Source of the DNA: Oceanicella sp. SM1341
GTDB lineage: Bacteria; Pseudomonadota; Alphaproteobacteria; Rhodobacterales; Rhodobacteraceae
Direction: 5' to 3'
DNA length: 64,000 nt
Assembly (NCBI RefSeq): GCF_003448965.1
Contig: NZ_QRGC01000006.1
Coordinates: 62,001 to 126,000 of the forward strand
Positions 36,459 through 62,030 of the stretch are shown in pieces. The notes beneath the pieces are model-generated. The model saw only the letters and a program-made list of their open reading frames with translations. It searched no databases and was not told the origin of the DNA. Positions within the stretch are counted from its first letter, which is position 1. Each line of letters begins with the position of its first letter. The position numbers and the translations under genes are program-made.

Positions 36459-37052
36459 ATGCGCAAGGCCGAGATCGCCCGCAAGACCGCCGAAACCGAT
36501 ATCCGCGTCGAGATCGAGCTCGACGGCAGCGGCAAGTACGACAATGACACCGGCGTGGGTTTCTTCGACCACATGCTGGACCAGCTTGCCCGCCACGCCC
36601 TGATCGACATGCGGGTGCGCGCCAGCGGCGACCAGCATATCGACGACCACCACACGGTGGAGGACGTGGGCATCGCGCTCGGCCGCGCTCTGGCCGAGGC
36701 GGTGGGCTCGAAGCGCGGCATCACCCGCTACGGCTCCTGCATGCTGGTGATGGACGAGGCGCTGATCCGCGCGGCGCTCGACATCTCGGGCCGGCCCTTC
36801 CTGGTGTGGAAGGTGGAATTCCCGACCGAGAAGATCGGCACCTTCGACACCCAGCTGGTGCGCGAGTTCTTCACCGCCTTCGCGATGAATTCCGGCATCA
36901 CCCTGCATGTCGAGCGGCTGGACGGGTTCAACAGCCACCATATCGCCGAGGCCGCCTTCAAGGCCGTGGCCCGCGCGCTGCGCATGGCGCTGGAGACCGA
37001 CCCGCGCCGCGCCGACGCGGTGCCCTCCACCAAGGGGACGCTGAGCGAATGA
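36459..37052 (+). CDS. hisB: Imidazoleglycerol-phosphate dehydratase
   Basis: A 197-residue enzyme of histidine synthesis. It converts imidazole glycerol phosphate to imidazole acetol phosphate. Two metal-binding repeats are visible: HHTVEDV (64-70), with an upstream FFDHML, and [12 protein letters not shown] in the C-terminal half. It is the dehydratase only, without the phosphatase domain found in E. coli. The start at MRKAEIARK is in frame with the long ORF and follows a GAG-rich leader. It overlaps hisH by 4 bp. Confidence 0.96.
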
Positions 37053-37684
37053 AGACCGTCATCGTCGATTACGGCTCCGGCAACCTCGCCTCGGCCGAGA
37101 AGAGCTTCCAGCGCATGGCGGCCGAGACCGGGGGCGGGCTGGTGCTTGTCTCCGGCAAGGCCGAGGACGTGCTGGCGGCCGACCGCATCGTGCTGCCGGG
37201 CGTCGGCGCCTTTGCCGATTGCCGGGCCGGGCTGATGGCCGTGGAGGGGATGTTCGAGGCGATCTCCGAGCGGGTGAAGCAGGGCACGCCCTTCATGGGC
37301 ATCTGCGTGGGCATGCAGCTCATGGCCACCCGCGGGCTGGAGCATGGCGAGACCCCGGGGTTCGACTGGATCCACGGCGACGTGGTGCGCATGGTGCCCA
37401 ACGACCCGGAGCTGAAGATCCCGCACATGGGCTGGAACGAGCTGATGATCGACCGGCCGCACCCGGTGTTCGAGGGCGTGGAGCCGGGCGACCACGCCTA
37501 TTTCGTGCATTCCTACCACCTGACGCCGCGCGAGCCCTCGCACCGCATCGCCCACGTGGCCTACGGCGAGTTCATCACCGCCGCGGTGGCGCGGGGCAAT
37601 ATCGTGGGCACCCAGTTTCACCCGGAGAAGAGCCAGAAGACCGGCCTGCGCGTGATCGCCAATTTCCTGAAGTGGAAGCCCTGA
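37049..37684 (+). CDS. hisH: Imidazole glycerol phosphate synthase, glutamine amidotransferase subunit
   Basis: A 211-residue class I amidotransferase. Nucleophile Cys86 lies in [18 protein letters not shown] is near residue 51, and the catalytic His/Glu lie in FHPEKS near the C-terminus. It supplies ammonia to HisF. The partner hisF is not in this window. It is co-translated with hisB (ATGA). Confidence 0.95.
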
Positions 37685-38156: not shown

Positions 38157-39068
38157 ATGAAACTGGTGACCTATCGCAGGCATGTGGAGGCGGAGGCGCG
38201 GCTGGGCGCGCTGGTCGACGGGCTGGTGGTCGATATCGCGATGCTGGGGGCCGCGGCGGGGGTGGAGCTGCCCGCGCGCATGCTCGACTTCATCGCCGCC
38301 GGGCCGGCGGCGCTCAGGGCGGCGAACCGGCTCATCGAGGCAGGCATCGACAGCTGGCCGGTGCCCGGCGTGCTGCCGGCGGCGAACGTGACCCTGCTGG
38401 CGCCGATCCCGCGGCCGGCGAAGAACATCTTCGGCATCGGGCTCAACTACGTGGAGCACGTGGAGGAATCGGCCCGCACGCTCGACACGTCGCGCGACCT
38501 GCCCAAGCAGCCGGTGATCTTCTCCAAGCCGCCCACGGCGGTGATCGGGCCGGGCGAGCCGGTGCGCCACAATGGCGCGCTGACCCAGCAGCTCGACTGG
38601 GAAGTGGAGCTCGCCGCCATCATCGGCACGCGCGCGCACAGGGTGAGCAAGGCCGACGCGATGGCGCATGTCTTCGGCTATTCGGTGATGATCGACATCT
38701 CCGCGCGCGACAACCGCCGCTCGGGGCAGTGGATCGTCTCGAAGGGGCAGGACACGTTCGCGCCCTTCGGCCCCTGCATCGTGACGGCCGACGAGATCGG
38801 CGACCCGCAGGGGCTCGACCTCTGGCTCACGGTGAACGGGGTGGAGAAGCAGCGCTCCAACACCCGCCACATGCTGTTCAGGATCGACACGCTGGTCTCC
38901 GACATCTCGTCGTGCATGACGCTGGAGCCGGGCGACATCATCGCCACCGGCACGCCCGAGGGGGTGGGCGCCGGGCGCGACCCGCAGGAATGGCTCTGGC
39001 CGGGCGACGAGATCGAGTGTGGCGTCGAAGGCATCGGCACCCTGCGCCACTCGGTGATCAGGGCGTGA
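38157..39068 (+). CDS. Fumarylacetoacetate hydrolase-family protein (C-C hydrolase)
   Basis: A 303-residue FAH-domain enzyme. It has the IFGIGLNYVEHVEESART segment, DWEVELAAIIG with metal-ligand acids and VFGYSVMIDISARDN. FMLTxST-like substrate contacts are replaced by SDISSCMTLEPGDIIATGTPEGVG. It probably hydrolyses a fumarylpyruvate- or maleylpyruvate-type ring-cleavage product, given the dioxygenase next door. No maleylpyruvate isomerase is in the window, so either direct hydrolysis or a remote isomerase is needed. A shared operator links it to the dioxygenase gene. Its stop lies in a 17-bp tandem duplication. Confidence 0.85.
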   Translation: MKLVTYRRHVEAEARLGALVDGLVVDIAMLGAAAGVELPARMLDFIAAGPAALRAANRLIEAGIDSWPVPGVLPAANVTLLAPIPRPAKNIFGIGLNYVEHVEESARTLDTSRDLPKQPVIFSKPPTAVIGPGEPVRHNGALTQQLDWEVELAAIIGTRAHRVSKADAMAHVFGYSVMIDISARDNRRSGQWIVSKGQDTFAPFGPCIVTADEIGDPQGLDLWLTVNGVEKQRSNTRHMLFRIDTLVSDISSCMTLEPGDIIATGTPEGVGAGRDPQEWLWPGDEIECGVEGIGTLRHSVIRA

Positions 39069-39085
39069 CGGTGATCAGGGCGTGA
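39052..39085. repeat. 17-bp perfect tandem duplication at a convergent gene end
   Basis: CGGTGATCAGGGCGTGA is duplicated (39052-39068 and 39069-39085). The first copy supplies the stop of the FAH hydrolase gene and the second that of the GntR gene. Confidence 0.85.
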
Positions 39086-39776
39086 CGGGCTCCGGGGCGG
39101 CGCGGGCCAGCGCCGCCTCGATGAACTCGCCGGTGCGGGTGTAGTGGCGGGCGAGCAGGTCGCAGGCCAGGCCCGCGTCGCGCGCAAGGGCGGCATCGCG
39201 CAGGGCGCCGTGTTCGGCGATCACGGTCTCGGCGCTGTCGGCCATCAGGTGCGGCCGGCGGTAGCGCTCGGTCTGCAGGTAGAGCTGCCGGGCGAGGCGC
39301 AGCAGCGAGGGGGAGCCGCAGGCCTCGATGAGCGTGCCGTGAAAGACCGCGTGGTAATGCTCGAAGACGGCGCGGCTCTCCTCGTCGGCCGGGCCGGGGG
39401 CGGTGACGCAGTGCGAGAAGGCGGCGAGGGTCGCCTGCACGCGGGCCTCCCAGGCGGCGTCTCCCTTGTCGATCGCGAGGCGCAGGGCCTCGCCTTCGAT
39501 GAGGATGCGGGTGCGCAGGATGTCCCACATCTCGGCCAGCGAGAACTCGGCCACGCGGAAGCCGCGCAGGCTGGACTGGCTGACGAGACGGTCGGCCGCG
39601 AGGCGGGTCAGCGCCTCGCGCAGGGGTGAGAAGCTGTAGCCGTAGCGGGCGCGCAGCGGCTCCAGCCGCAAGGGCTGGCCCGGGGCGAAGCCACCGCCCA
39701 GGATGTCCGAGCGGAGCCGGGAATAGGCGCGGTCGGCCAGGCTCTCCGCGGGCTGGGGTTTGCTGATCTGGTTCAT
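39075..39776 (-). CDS. GntR-family regulator with FCD domain
   Basis: A 233-residue FadR-type regulator. The N-terminal winged helix is residues 12-75, including SDILGGGFAPGQPLRLEPL and a SPLREALTRLAADRLV recognition region. The C-terminal FCD domain is all-helical, with candidate metal ligands in an EHYHAVFHGTL segment. It is divergent from the dioxygenase gene and 6 bp from the convergent hydrolase stop. Two copies of a palindromic operator before the hydrolase and dioxygenase genes make it the likely local repressor, with a ring-cleavage product as possible inducer. Confidence 0.88.
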   Translation of the reverse strand: MNQISKPQPAESLADRAYSRLRSDILGGGFAPGQPLRLEPLRARYGYSFSPLREALTRLAADRLVSQSSLRGFRVAEFSLAEMWDILRTRILIEGEALRLAIDKGDAAWEARVQATLAAFSHCVTAPGPADEESRAVFEHYHAVFHGTLIEACGSPSLLRLARQLYLQTERYRRPHLMADSAETVIAEHGALRDAALARDAGLACDLLARHYTRTGEFIEAALARAAPEPVTP

Positions 39777-39863
39777 GCGTGCGGCCTCTGCCCCCTGCGA
39801 TCCCTGATGCGGTTTTATAGGATGGTGCGTCGCGGGAAAAGCGTGCGGTTCGACACATCCCGG

Positions 39864-39877
39864 GATTTTATAAAATC
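39864..39877. promoter_or_regulatory. GntR-type operator upstream of the dioxygenase gene
   Basis: GATTTTATAAAATC is identical to the palindrome core before the FAH gene, 66 bp upstream of the dioxygenase start. A weaker half-match, GGTTTTATAGGATG, lies nearby at about 39811-39824, close to the GntR promoter side. Confidence 0.75.
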
Positions 39878-39943
39878 ATTGACTGACTCCGCGCAGTGTC
39901 TAACCTCGGGTAAGCTTGAGAGCCTGCGACCGGAGGACAGGGC

Positions 39944-41068
39944 ATGGACACCGACTACGACAGCCATCGCGAGGACGTGGCAGGCCGCGCGAACGTGGAA
40001 ACCACGCCCGAGCTGCGCGCCTATTACGAGGAGCTGGCGGGCGCCGAGGCCGGCGCGCTCTGGACCGTGGCCAACAAGATCGAGCCCTGGGAGCCTGTGT
40101 CGGCCTCGCTTCCCGTGCTGTGGCGCTACGAGGCGCTGCGCGACAAGGTGCTGAAATCGCTCGACCTGGTGACGCCGGAGCAGGCGGGGCGGCGGGTGAT
40201 CTACCTCAGCAACCCCGGGCGGCGCGACGTGGTGGCGGCGGTGGGCTGGCTCTATTCCGGCCTGCAGGTGATGCGGGCGGGGGAGCGGGCCTCGGCGCAT
40301 ATCCACACCGCCTCGGCGCTGCGCTTCATCATCGAGGGGCAGGGCGCCTACACGGTGGTGGACGGCCACAAGATGACCCTCGGGCCCAATGATTTCGTGC
40401 TCACCCCCAACGGCACCTGGCACGAGCATGCCGTGGCCGAGGAGGGCACGGACTGCATCTGGCAGGACGGGCTGGACATCCCGCTCACCAACGCGATGGA
40501 GGCGAATTCCTACGCGGTGCACGAGGATCTCACCCAGGCGGTGACCTACCCGGTGGATGCTTCTTCCGGGGTGTGGGCGGCGCCGGGGCTGGTGCCCACC
40601 GGGCATCGCTGGAACAAGGGCTACTCGCCGCTGCTGAAATACCAGTGGGAGGCGACCTACGAGGCGCTGCAACGCCATGCGAAGGTTTCCGACGGCTCCG
40701 AGTTCGACGGCATCATGATGACCTTCGTGAACCCGGCCACCGGCGGCCACGTGATGCAGACCATCGGTGCCAGCATGCAGATGCTGCGGCCGGGCGAGCG
40801 CACCAAGGCGCACCGGCACACGGGCAGCTTCCTCTATCACTGCGCGAAGGGCGCGGGACATTCCATCATCAACGGCAAGCGCTTCGACTGGAAGGAGCAC
40901 GACATCTTCTGCGTGCCCTCCTGGGCCTGGCACGAGCATGCCAATGCCTCCGACACCGAGGATGCCTGCCTGTTCTGCTTCAACGACCTGCCGGTGATGG
41001 AGAAGCTGGGCTACTGGCGCGAGGAGGCCTTCGGCGACAATGGCGGCCGCCAGCCCGTGCTGGCCTGA
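39944..41068 (+). CDS. Gentisate/salicylate 1,2-dioxygenase (bicupin)
   Basis: A 374-residue ring-cleaving dioxygenase. The N-terminal cupin carries His119-Ile-His121 and His160 as the iron ligands, with Arg127 and His162 nearby. To my memory these positions coincide with the numbering reported for the Pseudaminobacter salicylate dioxygenase, and the family also acts on gentisate. The C-terminal cupin ([16 protein letters not shown], about 287-302) is less likely to be catalytic. It would feed maleylpyruvate to the neighbouring FAH hydrolase. A GntR operator lies 66 bp upstream. Which substrate is used cannot be decided from sequence. Confidence 0.85.
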
Positions 41069-41142: not shown

Positions 41143-41865
41143 ATGATCCTCTACCCCGCGATCGACCTGAAGGACGGCCAGTGCGTGCGCCTCTACAAGG
41201 GCGAGATGGACCAGGCCACCGTGTTCAGCGACGACCCGGCGGCGCAGGCGAAGCTGTTCGAGGACGCGGGTTGCGAGTGGCTGCACCTGGTCGATCTCAA
41301 CGGGGCTTTCGCCGGCGAGCCGGTGAATGCCGCGGCGGTGGAGGGCATCCTCGAGCGCTGCCGCGTGCCGGCGCAACTCGGCGGCGGCATCCGCGACATG
41401 GCCACCATCGAGCGCTGGCTCGACAAGGGCCTCGCGCGGGTGATCCTCGGTACCGTGGCGGTGCGCGACCCCGGGCTGGTGAAGCAGGCGGCGAAGGCCT
41501 TCCCCGGCAAGGTCGCCGTGGGGATCGACGCGCGTGACGGGCTGGTGGCCGTGCAGGGCTGGGCGGAGGCGACCGACATCCTGGCCGTCGACCTCGCGCG
41601 GCAGTTCGAGGACGCGGGCGTGGCGGCGATCATCTACACCGACATCGACCGCGACGGCGCGATGGGCGGCCCGAACGTGGGCGCCACCGCGGCGCTGGCG
41701 CAGGCGGTCTCCATCCCGGTGATCGCCTCGGGCGGGGTGTCCTCGCTCGACGACCTGCGGGCGCTGAAGGACTGCGGCGCGCCGCTCGACGGCGCCATCT
41801 CGGGCCGCGCGCTCTACGACGGCAAGATCGACCTCGCCGAGGCCGTGGCGCTGCTGAAGGGCTGA
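41143..41865 (+). CDS. hisA: Phosphoribosylformimino-5-aminoimidazole carboxamide ribotide isomerase
   Basis: A 240-residue (beta/alpha)8 isomerase of histidine synthesis. The catalytic Asp8 is in [10 protein letters not shown], and the second acid lies in [12 protein letters not shown]. It has the phosphate-binding GGGIRD and ASGGVSS motifs of the HisA/HisF fold. It is separated from hisH by a ring-cleavage cassette and followed by a spike cassette rather than hisF. The ATG is preceded by GGGAG. Confidence 0.95.
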
Positions 41866-41979
41866 TCCGCCCCAGCGGGACGCTCCGGGGCCGGCCTGCG
41901 CAACGCCCCCCGGCCTTCGTGTATCACCTTCCCGGACGACCGGCTCCGTACCCGCCGGCATTCGTGGAAGGAGATTGTT

Positions 41980-42240
41980 GTGAAGGACATTTTCGCGAAC
42001 CAGACCTCGAGCCTCACGTCCCCCTTCGGATATGCCGAAGTGGTGATCACGAGCGACTCGCTGGACCTGCCCTACGCCTCGCGCGCGCTCTACATCGGCG
42101 TGACCGGCGACATCAAGGTGACGACGCTCGGCGGAACGGTGGTGACCTTCCGCAACCACCCGGTGGGCTACCTGCCGGCGCGCGTCTCGCGGGTGCACAG
42201 CACCGGTACCACCGCGGCCGAAATCATCGCCGTCTGGTAA
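41980..42240 (+). CDS. GTA/phage head-spike base-type protein (RCAP_rcc01079-like)
   Basis: An 86-residue small beta-rich protein. The pattern FANQTSSLTSPFGYAEVV, a DLPYASRALYIGVTGDI strand pair and a C-terminal SRVHSTGTTAAEIIAVW resemble the small spike-base protein described for the Rhodobacter capsulatus gene transfer agent (rcc01079 type). I recognise it from pattern memory. It starts with GTG, with AGGAG six bases upstream. It ends 3 bp before the fibre-like gene, so the two are coupled. In R. capsulatus this protein plugs the base of the head spike. Confidence 0.72.
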   Translation: MKDIFANQTSSLTSPFGYAEVVITSDSLDLPYASRALYIGVTGDIKVTTLGGTVVTFRNHPVGYLPARVSRVHSTGTTAAEIIAVW

Positions 42241-42243
42241 GAC

Positions 42244-43791
42244 ATGATCTCGCTCGGTCTCGACCCCATCGCGCTTGCCGTGCTCTACGGCAGCCGCGAA
42301 CCGCCGCTGCCGCCGGTGAACACGGCTGCGCCGACGATCGCGGGCACGCCGCAGATCGGCAGCAGCCTCACCGGCACGACGGGCAGCTGGGACAACATCA
42401 CCGACCAGAACCTCGTCTGGTCCTGGCAGCTCAACAACGCCGACATCCCGGCGCAGAACGGCACCGGCGCGCTGGTGGAGCCGCTGCTGCTGGAGGCATC
42501 CTACCTGCTGGGTGCCGTGCGGCTGCGCGTGACGGCCACCACCGGCGGCGGGCGCGTGACCAGCGTCTCGGCGCCGCTCACCGTGGTGCACGTGCCGCCG
42601 GTGGCCAAGACCGGCACGCCGGTGATCTCGTTCCGGATCGACGATCCGGGGCTGACGCAATCCGTGAGCTCGGGTTTCACCGGCGAGGGGCTGAGCTATG
42701 CGCTGGCGCCCGGCTCGCCCGCGCTGCCGGCCGGTCTCTCGCTCTCGGCCTCGGGGGCGATCACCGGCACGGCCACGGGGCCTGCGGGAGACACCACGAT
42801 CACGGTGCGGGCCACCAACACCGGCGGCTTTGCCGACCGGAACTGGGTGGTGCGCATCGCGACGCCGGCGTTTCTCGCGGATTACGAGACCGGCAGCTAC
42901 TCGGCCACCGGCATTCCCGGCGCCGGGTTCGACGACCTGCACGCCTTCTCCCGGGCCTCGACCGCGTCCTACACCAACGCGAGCGGGCTGGTGGCCTTCG
43001 CGGCGGCAAACGAGCCACGCCTGCAGCACAACGCAGCCGGCGCGCCGCTGGGGCTGCTGGTGGAACCGGCGGCGACGAACATCTTCGTGCATTCCGAGGA
43101 TTTCACCCATTCCGGCCTGCAGCTCGGCGGGTTCACCGCGACGGCAGATGCCGCCGTGGCGCCCGACGGCACCATGACGGCGGATTTCCTGGACGCCACC
43201 GGCAGCTATCCCGCGGTGCGACGGCAGGTGTCCTGCATTCCGGGAGTGACCTATCGCTTCTCGATCTGGATGCGGCTGCCGTCCGGGTCCTTCGCCATTC
43301 CGCTGCGGCTGCGCAGGGCGGCGGGGGGCATCTTCGCCGAGAAGTTCGTGCAGGTCACCACGAGCTGGCAACGCTTCGAGGTGACCGGAACCGTGCCGAG
43401 CGGGGAGACCGCGATGAAGGCCGCCATCGGCGGCGAGGCGTCCTTCCCGCCGGGTGAGTCGATCTACCTGTGGGGCGCGCAGGTGGAGGAGGTCGCCGGG
43501 CCCTCCAGCACCTACGTGCGTGCCGGCGCCTCGCCGGGCATGCGCGCGGCGGACATGATCGCCCTCGACGTGCTCGCCCCCGGCATCCACGACATCACCA
43601 CCATCGACACCGACAACACCCGGCGCGTGCAGTTCGGCGTCGTGGTGTCCGGCCCCTACTGGCCGGCCCATGTTCAGATGCCGCGGCGCATCTTCGGCTA
43701 CCCCTCGGCCTTCGAGGGGCTGACCCTGCCGGACGGCAGCTTCCTGCAGACCGAATCCGGACTGGCCCTCACACTGGAGACCCGCTCATGA
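42244..43791 (+). CDS. Head-spike/fibre-type protein with Ig-like and fibre domains
   Basis: A 515-residue protein. Residues 1 to about 110 form an N-terminal beta domain, and a putative Ig-like (He_PIG-like) motif LPAGLSLSASGAITGT lies at 161-176. From about 235 onward comes a spike-fibre/carbohydrate-binding-like domain with SRASTASYTNASGLV and the LVEPAATNI motif. No signal peptide is seen. Its position directly after a spike-base gene and the domain order match the GTA head-spike fibre (rcc01080) arrangement, which is thought to bind capsule. It overlaps the next gene (ATGA). Confidence 0.72.
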   Translation: MISLGLDPIALAVLYGSREPPLPPVNTAAPTIAGTPQIGSSLTGTTGSWDNITDQNLVWSWQLNNADIPAQNGTGALVEPLLLEASYLLGAVRLRVTATTGGGRVTSVSAPLTVVHVPPVAKTGTPVISFRIDDPGLTQSVSSGFTGEGLSYALAPGSPALPAGLSLSASGAITGTATGPAGDTTITVRATNTGGFADRNWVVRIATPAFLADYETGSYSATGIPGAGFDDLHAFSRASTASYTNASGLVAFAAANEPRLQHNAAGAPLGLLVEPAATNIFVHSEDFTHSGLQLGGFTATADAAVAPDGTMTADFLDATGSYPAVRRQVSCIPGVTYRFSIWMRLPSGSFAIPLRLRRAAGGIFAEKFVQVTTSWQRFEVTGTVPSGETAMKAAIGGEASFPPGESIYLWGAQVEEVAGPSSTYVRAGASPGMRAADMIALDVLAPGIHDITTIDTDNTRRVQFGVVVSGPYWPAHVQMPRRIFGYPSAFEGLTLPDGSFLQTESGLALTLETRS

Positions 43792-45269
43792 CCACGCTTT
43801 CCCAGATCGCCAAACACGTGAGCCAGCCGGAGGCGACCGACAGGCTCTACGTGCTCGACGTGTCCGACACCACCGAAGGCCCGGGCGGCAGCAGCGGCTA
43901 CACCACGCCGGGCGACCTGCTGGCCCCGGTGCGCTACGGCTTCCAGACCCGCGCGCTGGCCCAGACCACCGCCGTGCCGGCGGGGGCGAATTTCATCAGC
44001 GTCGCCGGCCTGCACTACAAGGTGGACAACAACGGCACCGCGCTCACCACGCTCGACGGGCGGAAATGGTCGCCCGACGGCACGGCGACCTACGAGCATT
44101 GGGGCGCCACCGCGAGCGATGCCAGCGACGACACGGTGGCCCTGCGCGCCGCGCACGACTGGGCGATGAAGAACAACGTGCCCCTGCGCCCGCAGGCCGG
44201 CGTGTACCGCGTGAGCGGCACGATCATCGACTACGACGTCCAGCGCGACGGCACCAACTGCAGCCTCAACCTGGTGGGCGACGGTATCGAGCGCACCAAG
44301 ATCCGCGTGATCGGCGCGCCCGGCGACTACCTGATCAAGATCGTCGGCGACACCTCGGCCTACGGGCTGCCGCATGCGAAGTTCTTCAACATCGAGAACC
44401 TCAGCATCGAGGGCGACGGCGCCTCGACCTGCGACGTGTTCTACATCGTCTGTGCGGGAAAGGTGCACCTGAAACGGATCAACGTGTTCAACTGCCGCGG
44501 CTACGTGGTGCGCGCGCTGGAATGGTGGGACAGCGAGTTCGACCTCTCCTGCACCCGCTGCGGCGACGACGGGCTGGGCGCGAACAGCGGCTCCAACGGC
44601 GTGCAGGTGCGCCCGGCTTTCCAGAAGCCGGCGGTCTACTTCAACTACTGGTTCGCCTCGGCGGTGGCGAACTCGGCCTGCAACAACATCTACATGCCCA
44701 AGACCTTCCAGATCGAGAGCTCGCGGCACACCGCGATGTACTGGGGCCCGGGCACGCGCAAATGCGCGCTCTACGGCAAGATCCACGGCTATCCGCCGCA
44801 GGAGATCCACTTTCCGCACCTGATCATGGACGGCGCCCGGCAGAACTTCATCATCGGCGCCAACCTCACCGAGTGCAACGGCATCGCCATCCGGATCATC
44901 AACGACAATGCCTACATCCCCACCGAGAACATGATCGTGGGCTCCTACATCGACGCGGATTCGGGCAATTGCGTGGAGATCAACGGCGGGCGGCGCAACA
45001 TCGTGGTGGGGAACTGCTTCGATACCACCGGCATCGCCGTGAACGTGCTGAGCGGGCTCGACAACGTGGTGCATTCGAACCTGAATTCCGGTGGCGCGGT
45101 GGTGGCCTCGGCCACGGACCTCTCGGCGCTCGAGCCGTTCCACGTGCTCACGGATTTCGAGATGACCACGGCGGGGGCTGCCGTGGTGCTCACCGCGGGC
45201 AACGGCACCAAGCACCGGCTCACGGTGTCGAACGCCGGCCAGCTGCTGATCAACGGCACCAGGGTGTGA
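43788..45269 (+). CDS. Tail-spike-like right-handed beta-helix protein
   Basis: A 493-residue protein whose N-terminal 70 residues (SQIAKHVSQPEATDRLYVLD...) look like a particle-attachment region. Residues 100 to about 460 carry repeating beta-strand turns with Asn/Gly-rich motifs (NLVGDGIERTKIRV, FNIENLSIEGDGAS, NGIAIRIINDNAY), the pectate-lyase/tail-spike fold. Phage tail spikes of this kind degrade or bind polysaccharide. No catalytic residues can be assigned. It is coupled to the spike-fibre gene by ATGA overlap and closes the three-gene cassette. The R. capsulatus spike locus is described with two genes, so this third is notable. Confidence 0.68.
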   Translation: MTTLSQIAKHVSQPEATDRLYVLDVSDTTEGPGGSSGYTTPGDLLAPVRYGFQTRALAQTTAVPAGANFISVAGLHYKVDNNGTALTTLDGRKWSPDGTATYEHWGATASDASDDTVALRAAHDWAMKNNVPLRPQAGVYRVSGTIIDYDVQRDGTNCSLNLVGDGIERTKIRVIGAPGDYLIKIVGDTSAYGLPHAKFFNIENLSIEGDGASTCDVFYIVCAGKVHLKRINVFNCRGYVVRALEWWDSEFDLSCTRCGDDGLGANSGSNGVQVRPAFQKPAVYFNYWFASAVANSACNNIYMPKTFQIESSRHTAMYWGPGTRKCALYGKIHGYPPQEIHFPHLIMDGARQNFIIGANLTECNGIAIRIINDNAYIPTENMIVGSYIDADSGNCVEINGGRRNIVVGNCFDTTGIAVNVLSGLDNVVHSNLNSGGAVVASATDLSALEPFHVLTDFEMTTAGAAVVLTAGNGTKHRLTVSNAGQLLINGTRV

Positions 45270-53515: not shown

Positions 53516-55522
53516 TCAGTCCGGCCCGGCGCCGGCGGGCTGGCGCAGGGGGGCGGTGCCGCCGTCGGCCATGCTCTCGGGGCTCACCGGGGCGCCGGCG
53601 GCGGCCGGGACGGGTTTCGCCGCCGGTTTCGCCGGAGCGGAGGGGGGCGCAACGGGGGCCTCGTCGTCCGGGGCGTCGAAGGCGCCGGCGTCGCGCAGGG
53701 CGGCGGCGCGTTCCTTGCGCAGCACCTCGCGCAGGGTCTCGAAGCGCAGCCGGCTCTCGTTCACGTAGGAGGTGTTGAGATGCACGGCCACCCGGCGGTC
53801 CCAGAAGCCGTAGAGATCCTGCACCGTGCGGGCGTCGTGGCGGGCGAAGGCGGCGGTGAGCCGGTCGGCGGCGCGCTCCTCCTTGCCGAGCGAGAGCAGG
53901 GCCTGGCGCGCGGCCTCCAGCGCGGAGTGGAAGGTCTCGCGGATCACCACATCGGCGCCGGCGTCCATCAGTTCGTACTGGTGGATGCGGTCATAGGCCC
54001 GCGCCAGCACCCGCACCGAGGGCCAGTTGTGCTTGGCGAGCTGCACCAGCCGCACCGCCTTCTCGCGGTCGTCGATGGCCACCACCAGCACCGCGGCATC
54101 GGCGATGCCCGAGGCGCGCAGGATCTCCGGGCGCACCGGGTCGCCATAATAGGCCTTCTGGCCGAAATGCCCCACCGCGCCCACGCGCTCGGCGGCGTTG
54201 TCGACCACCACCACGGGCACGCCGATGCCGGTCATCATGCGCTGCACGATCTGCCCGAAGCGGCCGATGCCGGCGATGATCACCGTGCCGGTCTCGTCGA
54301 TCTCGTCGGCCTCGCGCGTGGCGGCGGTGGCGGCGGGGCGGCGCAGGAAGCGCTCGGCCAGCACGAAGAGCAGCGGGCTCGCCAGCATCGACAGCGCCAC
54401 CACCAGCGAGAGCGGGCCGCTCATGCTCGCCGGCAGCACGTTGGCGCCGGTGGAGAAGGCGATGAGCACGAAGGCGAATTCGCCCGCCTGCGCCAGCCCC
54501 AGCGACACCAGCATCGAATCTCCCGAGCCGAGGCGGAACACCCGGGTGAGCAGCAGCACCACGCCGAATTTCACCGCCATCAGCGCCGCGGTGGCGGCGA
54601 TGATCGGCAGGGGGTCGGCGAAGAGGGCGAACAGGTCGAACCCCGCGCCCACGGTGATGAAGAACAGCCCCAGCAGCAGGCCCTTGAACGGCTCGATATG
54701 CGACTCGATCTCGTGGCGATACTCGCTGCCCGAGAGCGCCACGCCGGCGGTGAAGGCGCCGAGCGCGGGGGTGAGGCCCACGTAGCCCATGGCCCAGGCA
54801 ATGCCGATGATCATCAGCAGCGTGGCGGCGGCGAAGATCTCGGTGAGCTGGCCGCGGGCGATGAAGCGGAACACCGGCCGGCTGAGGTAGCGCCCGCCCA
54901 CGATGATGGCGGTCATCTCGGCGAGGATGACGAGGGCGCGCGCCCAGTCCGGCAGCTCCGCCACCAGCGAGCCGGTGGAGATCAGCTCCGCCCCCTCGCC
55001 GGGCGCCTGCATGGCGAGCAGCGGCAGGAGCGCGATGATCGGGATCACCGCGATGTCCTGGAACAGCAGGATGGCGAAGGCGGTCTGCCCGCCGGGGCGG
55101 CGCATCCAGCCGCGCTCGCGCAGGGTCTGCAGCACGATGGCGGTGGAGGAGAGCGCGAGGATGAGGGCGATGGCCAGCGCGTGCTGCCACAGATTTCCCC
55201 AGAACAGCACCAGCGCCCCGGTGATCAGCCCGGCGGTGAGGGTGATCTGCAGCCCGCCCAGCCCCAGCAGCCGCGAGCGCATGCGCCACAGCTTGGCGGG
55301 GTCGAGCTCGAGCCCGATGAGGAACAGCATCATCACCACGCCGAACTCGGCGAAATGCTGGATGTCGGTCGCCTCCTCCCCGGCCCAGCCGAGGATCGGC
55401 CCGATCACCACGCCGGCGATGAGATAGCCCAGCACCGAGCCGAGGCCCAGACGGTTCGACAGCGGCACCGCCACCACCGCGGCGGCGAGGTAGAGGATGG
55501 CCTCGAGCAGGATACCTTCCAT
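53516..55522 (-). CDS. CPA2-family cation:proton antiporter with RCK domain
   Basis: A 668-residue transporter. A Kef-type membrane domain of about 12 helices (residues 1-380, beginning MEGILLEAILYLAAAVVAVP) includes GLELDPAKLWRMRSRLLGLG. A cytosolic RCK/TrkA-N domain follows with VIIAGIGRFGQIVQRM and a VVVVDN strand. The last 50 residues are Pro/Ala-rich. It probably exchanges K+ or Na+ for H+. Its ATG overlaps the stop of the Crp-family gene (TGATG), which suggests co-expression. Confidence 0.9.
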   Translation of the reverse strand: MEGILLEAILYLAAAVVAVPLSNRLGLGSVLGYLIAGVVIGPILGWAGEEATDIQHFAEFGVVMMLFLIGLELDPAKLWRMRSRLLGLGGLQITLTAGLITGALVLFWGNLWQHALAIALILALSSTAIVLQTLRERGWMRRPGGQTAFAILLFQDIAVIPIIALLPLLAMQAPGEGAELISTGSLVAELPDWARALVILAEMTAIIVGGRYLSRPVFRFIARGQLTEIFAAATLLMIIGIAWAMGYVGLTPALGAFTAGVALSGSEYRHEIESHIEPFKGLLLGLFFITVGAGFDLFALFADPLPIIAATAALMAVKFGVVLLLTRVFRLGSGDSMLVSLGLAQAGEFAFVLIAFSTGANVLPASMSGPLSLVVALSMLASPLLFVLAERFLRRPAATAATREADEIDETGTVIIAGIGRFGQIVQRMMTGIGVPVVVVDNAAERVGAVGHFGQKAYYGDPVRPEILRASGIADAAVLVVAIDDREKAVRLVQLAKHNWPSVRVLARAYDRIHQYELMDAGADVVIRETFHSALEAARQALLSLGKEERAADRLTAAFARHDARTVQDLYGFWDRRVAVHLNTSYVNESRLRFETLREVLRKERAAALRDAGAFDAPDDEAPVAPPSAPAKPAAKPVPAAAGAPVSPESMADGGTAPLRQPAGAGPD

Positions 55523-61449: not shown

Positions 61450-62030
61450 CCGAACGCCCGACCCTTACCGCCCGCGGCCTCGCCCGCCAGCAGGCCCTGA
61501 TGCTTGAGGCGGCGGAGCTGTTTCTCTCGCGCGGTTTCGCCGCGGTGACGGTGGACGAGATCGTGGCCGCGGCCGGCGGGTCGAAGACCAATGTCTACAA
61601 GCAGTTCGGCGGCAAGGAGGGGCTGTTCATCGCCGTGGTCGAGCGGCTGAGCGAGGAGTTCCTCTCGCCGCTCGAGCAGCTCGCGCCCGGGCCGGTCGAC
61701 AGCGGGACCGCTCTCGCGGCGCTGGGGCGCACCCTGCTGCACCAGCTGCTCGCACCGCGGCACATCGCCTTCCAGCGCATGATCATCGCGAGCTCGGACC
61801 AGTTTCCCCAGCTCATGGAGCACTGGTATGCGGTGGGGCCGCGGCGCAGCCAGGCGATCATCGCGCGCCACCTGCCCGGCGTGGACGATGCCCCGCGCCT
61901 CGCGATGCTGTTCCACGACATGCTGGTGACCGAGCCGGTGCTGCGCGCGATGATGGGCCGGCCCTGCAGCGCCGCCGAGACCGAGGCGCACCTGCTGGAC
62001 GCCGTGCGCACCATCGCCGGCCGGCTCTGA
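61446..62030 (+). CDS. TetR-family transcriptional regulator
   Basis: A 194-residue regulator. The N-terminal HTH is residues 15-58 (FAAVTVDEIVAAAGGSKTNVY, with KQFGGKEGLF), followed by a C-terminal ligand domain of the TetR_C type. It is translated from an ATGA overlap with the exporter gene and probably represses the pair through the GATACGGTACCGTATC operator. Confidence 0.9.
   Translation: MTERPTLTARGLARQQALMLEAAELFLSRGFAAVTVDEIVAAAGGSKTNVYKQFGGKEGLFIAVVERLSEEFLSPLEQLAPGPVDSGTALAALGRTLLHQLLAPRHIAFQRMIIASSDQFPQLMEHWYAVGPRRSQAIIARHLPGVDDAPRLAMLFHDMLVTEPVLRAMMGRPCSAAETEAHLLDAVRTIAGRL

Follow-up and report, generated by a model that had tools for sequence, protein, structure and literature searches.

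The question raised by this locus is whether three spike-like genes, standing between hisA and a peptide ABC-transporter operon in Oceanicella sp. SM1341, are a phage remnant or a part of a gene transfer agent (GTA). They lie in a stretch of 64,000 nucleotides (the window; positions 62,001 to 126,000 of contig NZ_QRGC01000006.1), and coordinates below are those of the window. An earlier note on this DNA had described a cassette of a spike base, a spike fibre and a tailspike-like protein between the two flanks, and our analysis found the three open reading frames (ORF1 to ORF3) in that arrangement. We consider that the cassette is probably the head-spike locus, unlinked to the main cluster, of the GTA that this genome encodes, which is of the type known from Rhodobacter capsulatus (RcGTA), and that a third gene has enlarged it.

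ORF1 (86 aa, 41980 to 42240, forward strand) is assigned to the GhsA/Rcc01079 family of GTA head-spike bases. It matched the structure of Rcc01079 (PDB 6tb9_E3, E = 3.4e-6; 38% identity) and phrog_12296 (E = 7e-23), and could be aligned over its full length with the other bases of the family. ORF2 (515 aa, 42244 to 43791, forward strand) is assigned to the GhsB/Rcc01080 family of head-spike fibres. It matched the structure of Rcc01080 (PDB 6tb9_F3, E = 1.1e-11) and phrog_5939 (E = 2.1e-33), and a profile built from three sequences placed its residues 234–468 on residues 44–302 of Rcc01080 (E = 2.6e-15). Its predicted parts are an N-terminal base-binding peptide (MISLGLDP), an immunoglobulin (Ig) domain at residues 118–206 and a receptor domain resembling a lectin or carbohydrate-binding module (CBM) at about 250–450. 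The Ig family PF05345 was found with E = 2.6e-9, and the CBM family PF02018 weakly. In the predicted model the Ig and CBM-like regions reached a predicted local distance difference test score (pLDDT) of about 70–90, with a low mean confidence for the whole protein. Judged by these sequence comparisons, ORF1 and ORF2 are homologous to the head-spike base and fibre of RcGTA, as the earlier note had supposed. The genome has one copy each of the base and of the full fibre.

The start of the fibre was also compared. In RcGTA, the base pentamer has five pockets, which are occupied by five alternating leucines or isoleucines at the N-terminus of the fibre (PMC7296036). The start peptide of ORF2, MISLGLDPIALAVL, has three hydrophobic residues in register, after which Asp-Pro shifts the phase. 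An alternating-hydrophobic start of at least three residues was present in 18 of the 24 genes directly following a base, versus 5% of background ORFs, and the pairing of a small base gene with a downstream fibre gene that starts in this way is a simple signature by which spikes can be found. The Ig part of the fibre profile also gave two matches in a 6038-codon open frame near position 54000 of G000:C30, which probably encodes a giant repeat adhesin.

A GTA to which these spikes could belong was found in the same genome. The GTA TIM-barrel domain occurs once, and the 15 kb around it encode terminase, portal, HK97 capsid, connector, head completion, tail tube, distal tail, hub and NlpC peptidase proteins, the megatron (NF048004, 1819.6 bits) and a DUF2793 protein. 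The capsid matched that of RcGTA with 590 bits over nearly its full length. By its predicted gene content, this is a complete RcGTA-type cluster. A candidate GafA-type regulator was identified as well, in an open frame of 396 aa that encodes a helix-turn-helix and DUF6456; GafA homologues have been found under the latter annotation (PMC9638019). Both the cluster and the regulator are located on contigs other than the cassette's. The earlier note had named these two as things to look for, and had held that the lack of a GTA cluster, or best matches of all three genes to one unrelated prophage, would speak against it. The cluster is present and no single prophage gave the best match for all three genes, and therefore neither objection applies. 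Its interpretation is supported; the role of ORF3 that is set out below is inferred.

Our survey of 296 genomes of the family, nearly one per genus, showed that spikes are patchy (base profile positive in 110) and that the GTA core is near-universal (marker in 263). The GTA marker was found in 106 of the 110 spike-positive genomes versus 157 of the 186 spike-negative ones (Fisher p 0.001, which is indicative only as the genomes are related). Because base–fibre loci occur in this many genomes and track the GTA cluster, ORF1 and ORF2 are of an already known type, a normal GTA head-spike locus at an unusual location. Among the ORFs neighbouring the family's spike loci (100, some of them spurious, taken with no random-locus control), glycosyltransferase and polysaccharide-export families prevail; genes for UDP-sugar dehydrogenases and polysaccharide flippases also occur there (in the range L043–L082). 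In R. capsulatus, ghsAB adjoin capsule genes (PMC10218006). The glycan-gene surroundings in the family extend this pattern, and the hisA-side locus described here is the exception. At five loci (L046, L047, L053, L065 and L072) a spike base is present with no recognisable fibre directly downstream; in these cases the fibre gene may lie at another site, or the base alone may suffice.

The unusual element of the cassette is ORF3 (493 aa, 43788 to 45269, forward strand), not the base–fibre pair. It can be divided into a possible adaptor (residues 1–48), a tailspike neck (50–106), and a cap with a probable right-handed beta-helix (about 107–440). The Pfam scan gave no match for ORF3 itself. Its orthologue in a metagenome-assembled genome (MAG) of another genus, J013 (record RFGB01000142.1), passes PF13229 Beta_helix with 30.1 bits (cut-off 25.9) and has a trace of PF12218, the endosialidase cap model. 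This trace is seen too in TspA (Rcc02623), the detachable, biofilm-degrading GTA tailspike, whose cap has been described (PMC13420450). The PHROG matches of ORF3 were weak and of the tailspike or exopolysaccharide-depolymerase kind, and the neck is a module common to tailspike-like frames of other genera. Foldseek matched the ORF3 model, at TM-scores near 0.2, with phage tailspikes, with depolymerases and alginate epimerases, and with WceF, which is support for the fold class but for no finer detail. No match was obtained with the ORF3 profile against solved structures, no phage matched ORF3 at E 0.01 or better, and no signal peptide is evident from its sequence. The J013 orthologue and the tailspike-like matches agree with the earlier note's reading of ORF3 as a tailspike-like beta-helix. 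ORF3 is tailspike-like and probably folds as a beta-helix, and we regard it as most likely a tailspike that is specific to this lineage and borne by its GTA. It would be carried on GTA particles, where it would probably bind or cut the sugar coat of recipient cells.

Two side observations concern genes of other loci. A tailspike-like frame with the ORF3 neck module stands between the polysaccharide genes YjbH and Polysacc_synt_2 in genome G155 (L121:4784-6937). Other spike loci have a large third gene with a beta-helix trace or PKD domains (L063:7491-9419, L060:4232-6313 and L055:8344-10623), and these genes are unrelated to ORF3 by blastp.

The cassette is conserved in order and place. A sister species has this cassette at the same position, with identities of 96% for the base, 75% for the fibre and 89% for ORF3. 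In MAG J013, hisA, base, fibre and ORF3 follow in the same order, with the base 73% and ORF3 39% identical to ours. Both of these full-length relatives of ORF3 are third in the cassette, directly after hisA, and have the 4-base overlap with the fibre gene. The earlier note had called for a comparison across Rhodobacterales; within the family, the three-gene form was found in three of the 296 genomes. No further full-length ORF3 was found in the family genomes, in viral contigs, phages or plasmids, or in 84,980 GTDB genomes searched by pattern scans, which detect close relatives only. We rejected the idea that ORF3 generally accompanies GTA spikes, as it is full-length in only 3 of the 296 genomes and its other matches are partial, being the neck module or generic beta-helix. 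Comparison of the sister species gave dN/dS values of 0.07 (base), 0.34 (fibre) and 0.20 (ORF3), and of 0.05 for hisA. All three ORFs are real coding genes under purifying selection. The fastest-diverging part of the fibre between the sister species is the lectin-like receptor domain: the region of about 250–450 has 54–68% identity per 50-residue block versus 80–92% upstream, and ORF3 has no local hypervariability of this kind.

TspA was searched for with a profile made from 763–831-aa genes downstream of lysS in relatives, which were recognised by position and not from the original sequence. This profile was positive in 238 of the 296 genomes, and gave no match in the genome of SM1341, the sister species or MAG J013. 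In SM1341, lysS is flanked by a chemoreceptor and a peptidase gene, with no tspA. ORF3 as an orthologue of TspA was rejected (hhalign gave a probability of 17.7%, for an alignment of just 44 columns). Among GTA-positive genomes, TspA is absent from 23 of the 106 with a spike base versus 16 of the 157 without one (p 0.013, uncorrected for relatedness). ORF3 perhaps stands in for TspA, which would fit three genomes in two lineages. The fuller form of this idea is a non-orthologous replacement, in which TspA was lost and an unrelated tailspike was recruited to the head-spike operon, so that polysaccharide cutting was transferred from a protein associated with the baseplate to a protein made together with the capsid spikes and possibly mounted via them. 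We regard this form as tentative and on balance doubtful.

As for the layout of the locus, hisA (41143 to 41865, forward strand, with the HisA motif PAIDLKDG at 41155) is the upstream anchor of the cassette and serves as context. It is followed by a 114-bp intergenic region (41866 to 41979, same strand), which is expected to hold the promoter and ribosome-binding site. The ribosome-binding site of ORF1 is AAGGAGATTGTT, the same as in the sister species, and the GTG start of ORF1 has ATG at the equivalent position in the J013 orthologue. The earlier note had described the three genes as translationally coupled. The preferred ORF3 start, ATG at 43788, overlaps the ORF2 stop as ATGA; ORF1 and ORF2 are close-set with no overlap, the start of ORF2 lying 3 nt after the stop of ORF1. 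A mechanically called frame for ORF3 opens at 43470, and the orthologues open at 43788; the −4 overlap and the gene order are identical in the three genomes. Downstream, the peptide ABC-transporter operon lies from 45297 onwards and is oriented towards the cassette. In the sister species about 6 kb (L007:2598-8778) are present between the cassette and this operon with no counterpart in the window, containing genes of molybdopterin dehydrogenase subunits and a zinc dehydrogenase. Upstream, a GATase gene (36806–37684), probably hisH, adjoins hisA directly in MAG J013 and is separated from it here by a hydrolase, a GntR-type regulator and a cupin dioxygenase gene (38157–41068, named by eye).

Analysis of the 114-bp region revealed blocks kept in all three genomes, GCGCAACGCCC, TGTAT and GGAGATTG, and no sigma70-type site. 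In the leader of the main GTA cluster, a promoter-like site, TTGAC-N17-GTA or a close variant, was found in 10 of 11 genomes with alignable terL, at −328 to −355 from terL. Nine aligned leaders share, downstream of this site, a conserved box with the consensus CAAGCTGGAAGAANTGGGC and then a strong hairpin with a T run, ahead of the first gene. The hairpin in the leader of SM1341 itself (L006:4602-4690) folds with −38 kcal/mol (z −5.8) and resembles an intrinsic terminator; the leader was also found in loci L123, L124, L139 and L141–L145. The GTA cluster of Caulobacter is under anti-termination by GafZ (PMC11150451), and because GafZ acts in this way there, the leader terminator suggests a similar logic here. 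The analysis thus suggests control of the leader by anti-termination or attenuation, or a short RNA. No Rfam family scored above its gathering threshold on the leader, and no mention of a terminator or hairpin was found in the RcGTA regulation literature examined.

Based on these results, we propose the following mechanism. Five copies of ORF1 would form a spike base on the capsid pentamers, by homology with the jelly-roll pentamer of RcGTA. ORF2 would insert into this base by its N-terminal alternating hydrophobic peptide and display the fast-changing lectin-like domain, which would grip the surface polysaccharide of the recipient. ORF3 would be translated together with ORF2 through the ATGA overlap, and its product, most likely a trimeric beta-helix tailspike, would be released with the particle or attached to it. 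There it would bind and probably cleave capsule or biofilm polysaccharide, the job of TspA in most relatives, which must be filled otherwise here because this lineage has no TspA. Expression would be linked to that of the GTA, under control of GafA. The placing of the base on the capsid and adhesion by the lectin fibre are well supported; the action of a tailspike against a polysaccharide barrier is the conditional part of the proposal.

Several observations weigh against this proposal. ORF1 has Thr where Rcc01079 has Glu12, which coordinates a cation with the capsid in RcGTA. Across 43 bases of the family this position is Glu in 11 and Thr in 16, and because it varies so widely, Glu12 does not define the base family. 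The 114 bp before ORF1 contain no CtrA site, no main-cluster promoter and no GTA leader element, so that the shared promoter motif suggested by the earlier note was looked for and not found; the absence is compatible with GafA control, as the binding motif of GafA is undefined in the literature examined. Four of the 110 spike-positive genomes have no GTA marker. The AlphaFold model of ORF3 is of low confidence (mean pLDDT 48.5); just three sequences exist, which explains the low mean confidence of both the ORF2 and ORF3 models. Catalytic residues of ORF3 could not be assigned and no glycosidase family matched it, and full-length relatives are limited to the sister species and MAG J013. In addition, 20 further spike-positive genomes with no TspA also have no ORF3, and TspA replacement is therefore no general rule. 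Finally, the pair is not restricted to GTAs, since the phages RcapMu and RcWaterboi also have a base-like gene and, after it, a fibre gene that shares the lectin domain.

The last observation would fit a leftover tail-fibre module of an RcapMu-like prophage, unrelated to the resident GTA, but we consider this highly improbable. The phage bases are merely about 38–44% identical, ORF3 has no phage relative, and the position after hisA is kept in another genus under purifying selection. ORF1 is moreover the sole spike base here, and the genome has a complete GTA cluster. In agreement with the earlier note, which had ruled out an ordinary prophage remnant, no integrase or capsid gene adjoins the cassette and no phage gene was found among its annotated neighbours. 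Phage origin of the whole cassette, tested against phages, plasmids and viral contigs, was not supported. Other doubts concern ORF3 only. It might be an enzyme of the host, similar to the biofilm glycan enzyme WceF of Pantoea, which remodels the cell's own exopolysaccharide and is merely in the operon of the GTA spikes. WceF has a tailspike fold and is among the matches of the low-confidence model, a neck-module frame lies inside a polysaccharide locus of another genus, and family spike loci are often among glycosyltransferase genes. However, the 4-base overlap of ORF3 with the fibre gene occurs in all three genomes, ORF3 has no evident signal peptide, and no polysaccharide genes were found among the scanned neighbours of the cassette in the window, which makes a host enzyme unlikely. 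Somewhat less unlikely, and still doubtful, is that ORF3 is a second, non-enzymatic receptor-binding fibre, which widens the range of recipients and cuts no polysaccharide. The lack of assignable catalytic residues or a glycosidase family would agree with it, but the fold and the weak profile matches point mostly to depolymerases or polysaccharide enzymes, and the local hypervariability of the fibre is missing from ORF3.

The spikes of a GTA determine to which cells its DNA is delivered. That a spike operon has its own tailspike, in a lineage with no TspA, means that the polysaccharide-handling part of GTAs may be exchangeable, and the ORF3 lineage offers a natural experiment on whether a GTA must have such an enzyme to work in biofilms.

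Compared with known systems, the cassette is most like GhsA/GhsB of RcGTA (Rcc01079/Rcc01080; PMC7296036, PMC10218006). In both, a small base is followed by a fibre at a site unlinked to the main cluster, the proteins are homologous, and the fibre has a hydrophobic start peptide and a lectin-like domain. However, the third, tailspike-like gene is present only here, the fibre has 515 aa with an extra Ig domain versus 325 aa, the locus is on the hisA side rather than beside capsule genes, Glu12 is not kept, and the hydrophobic pattern of the start peptide is broken by Asp-Pro. Genes 57–58 of RcapMu and similar phage fibre pairs likewise have a base-like gene and then a fibre with a related lectin domain, but the RcapMu genes are within a phage tail module, lack an ORF3 and have about 38% identity. 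The beta-helix tailspike depolymerases of phages (such as CBA120 TSP3 and the Klebsiella K2 depolymerases) and WceF of Pantoea are similar to ORF3 in the general fold suggested by its low-confidence model and in the layout of neck and beta-helix, but share no sequence homology with it beyond the neck. TspA and ORF3 are both probable beta-helix tailspikes of Rhodobacterales that have a GTA, and the gene of neither is in the main cluster; their faint similarity is limited to about 44 cap residues. TspA, however, has 763 aa and adjoins lysS, whereas ORF3, with 493 aa, has no room for the N-terminal beta-sandwich and stands in a spike cassette of genomes in which TspA is missing.

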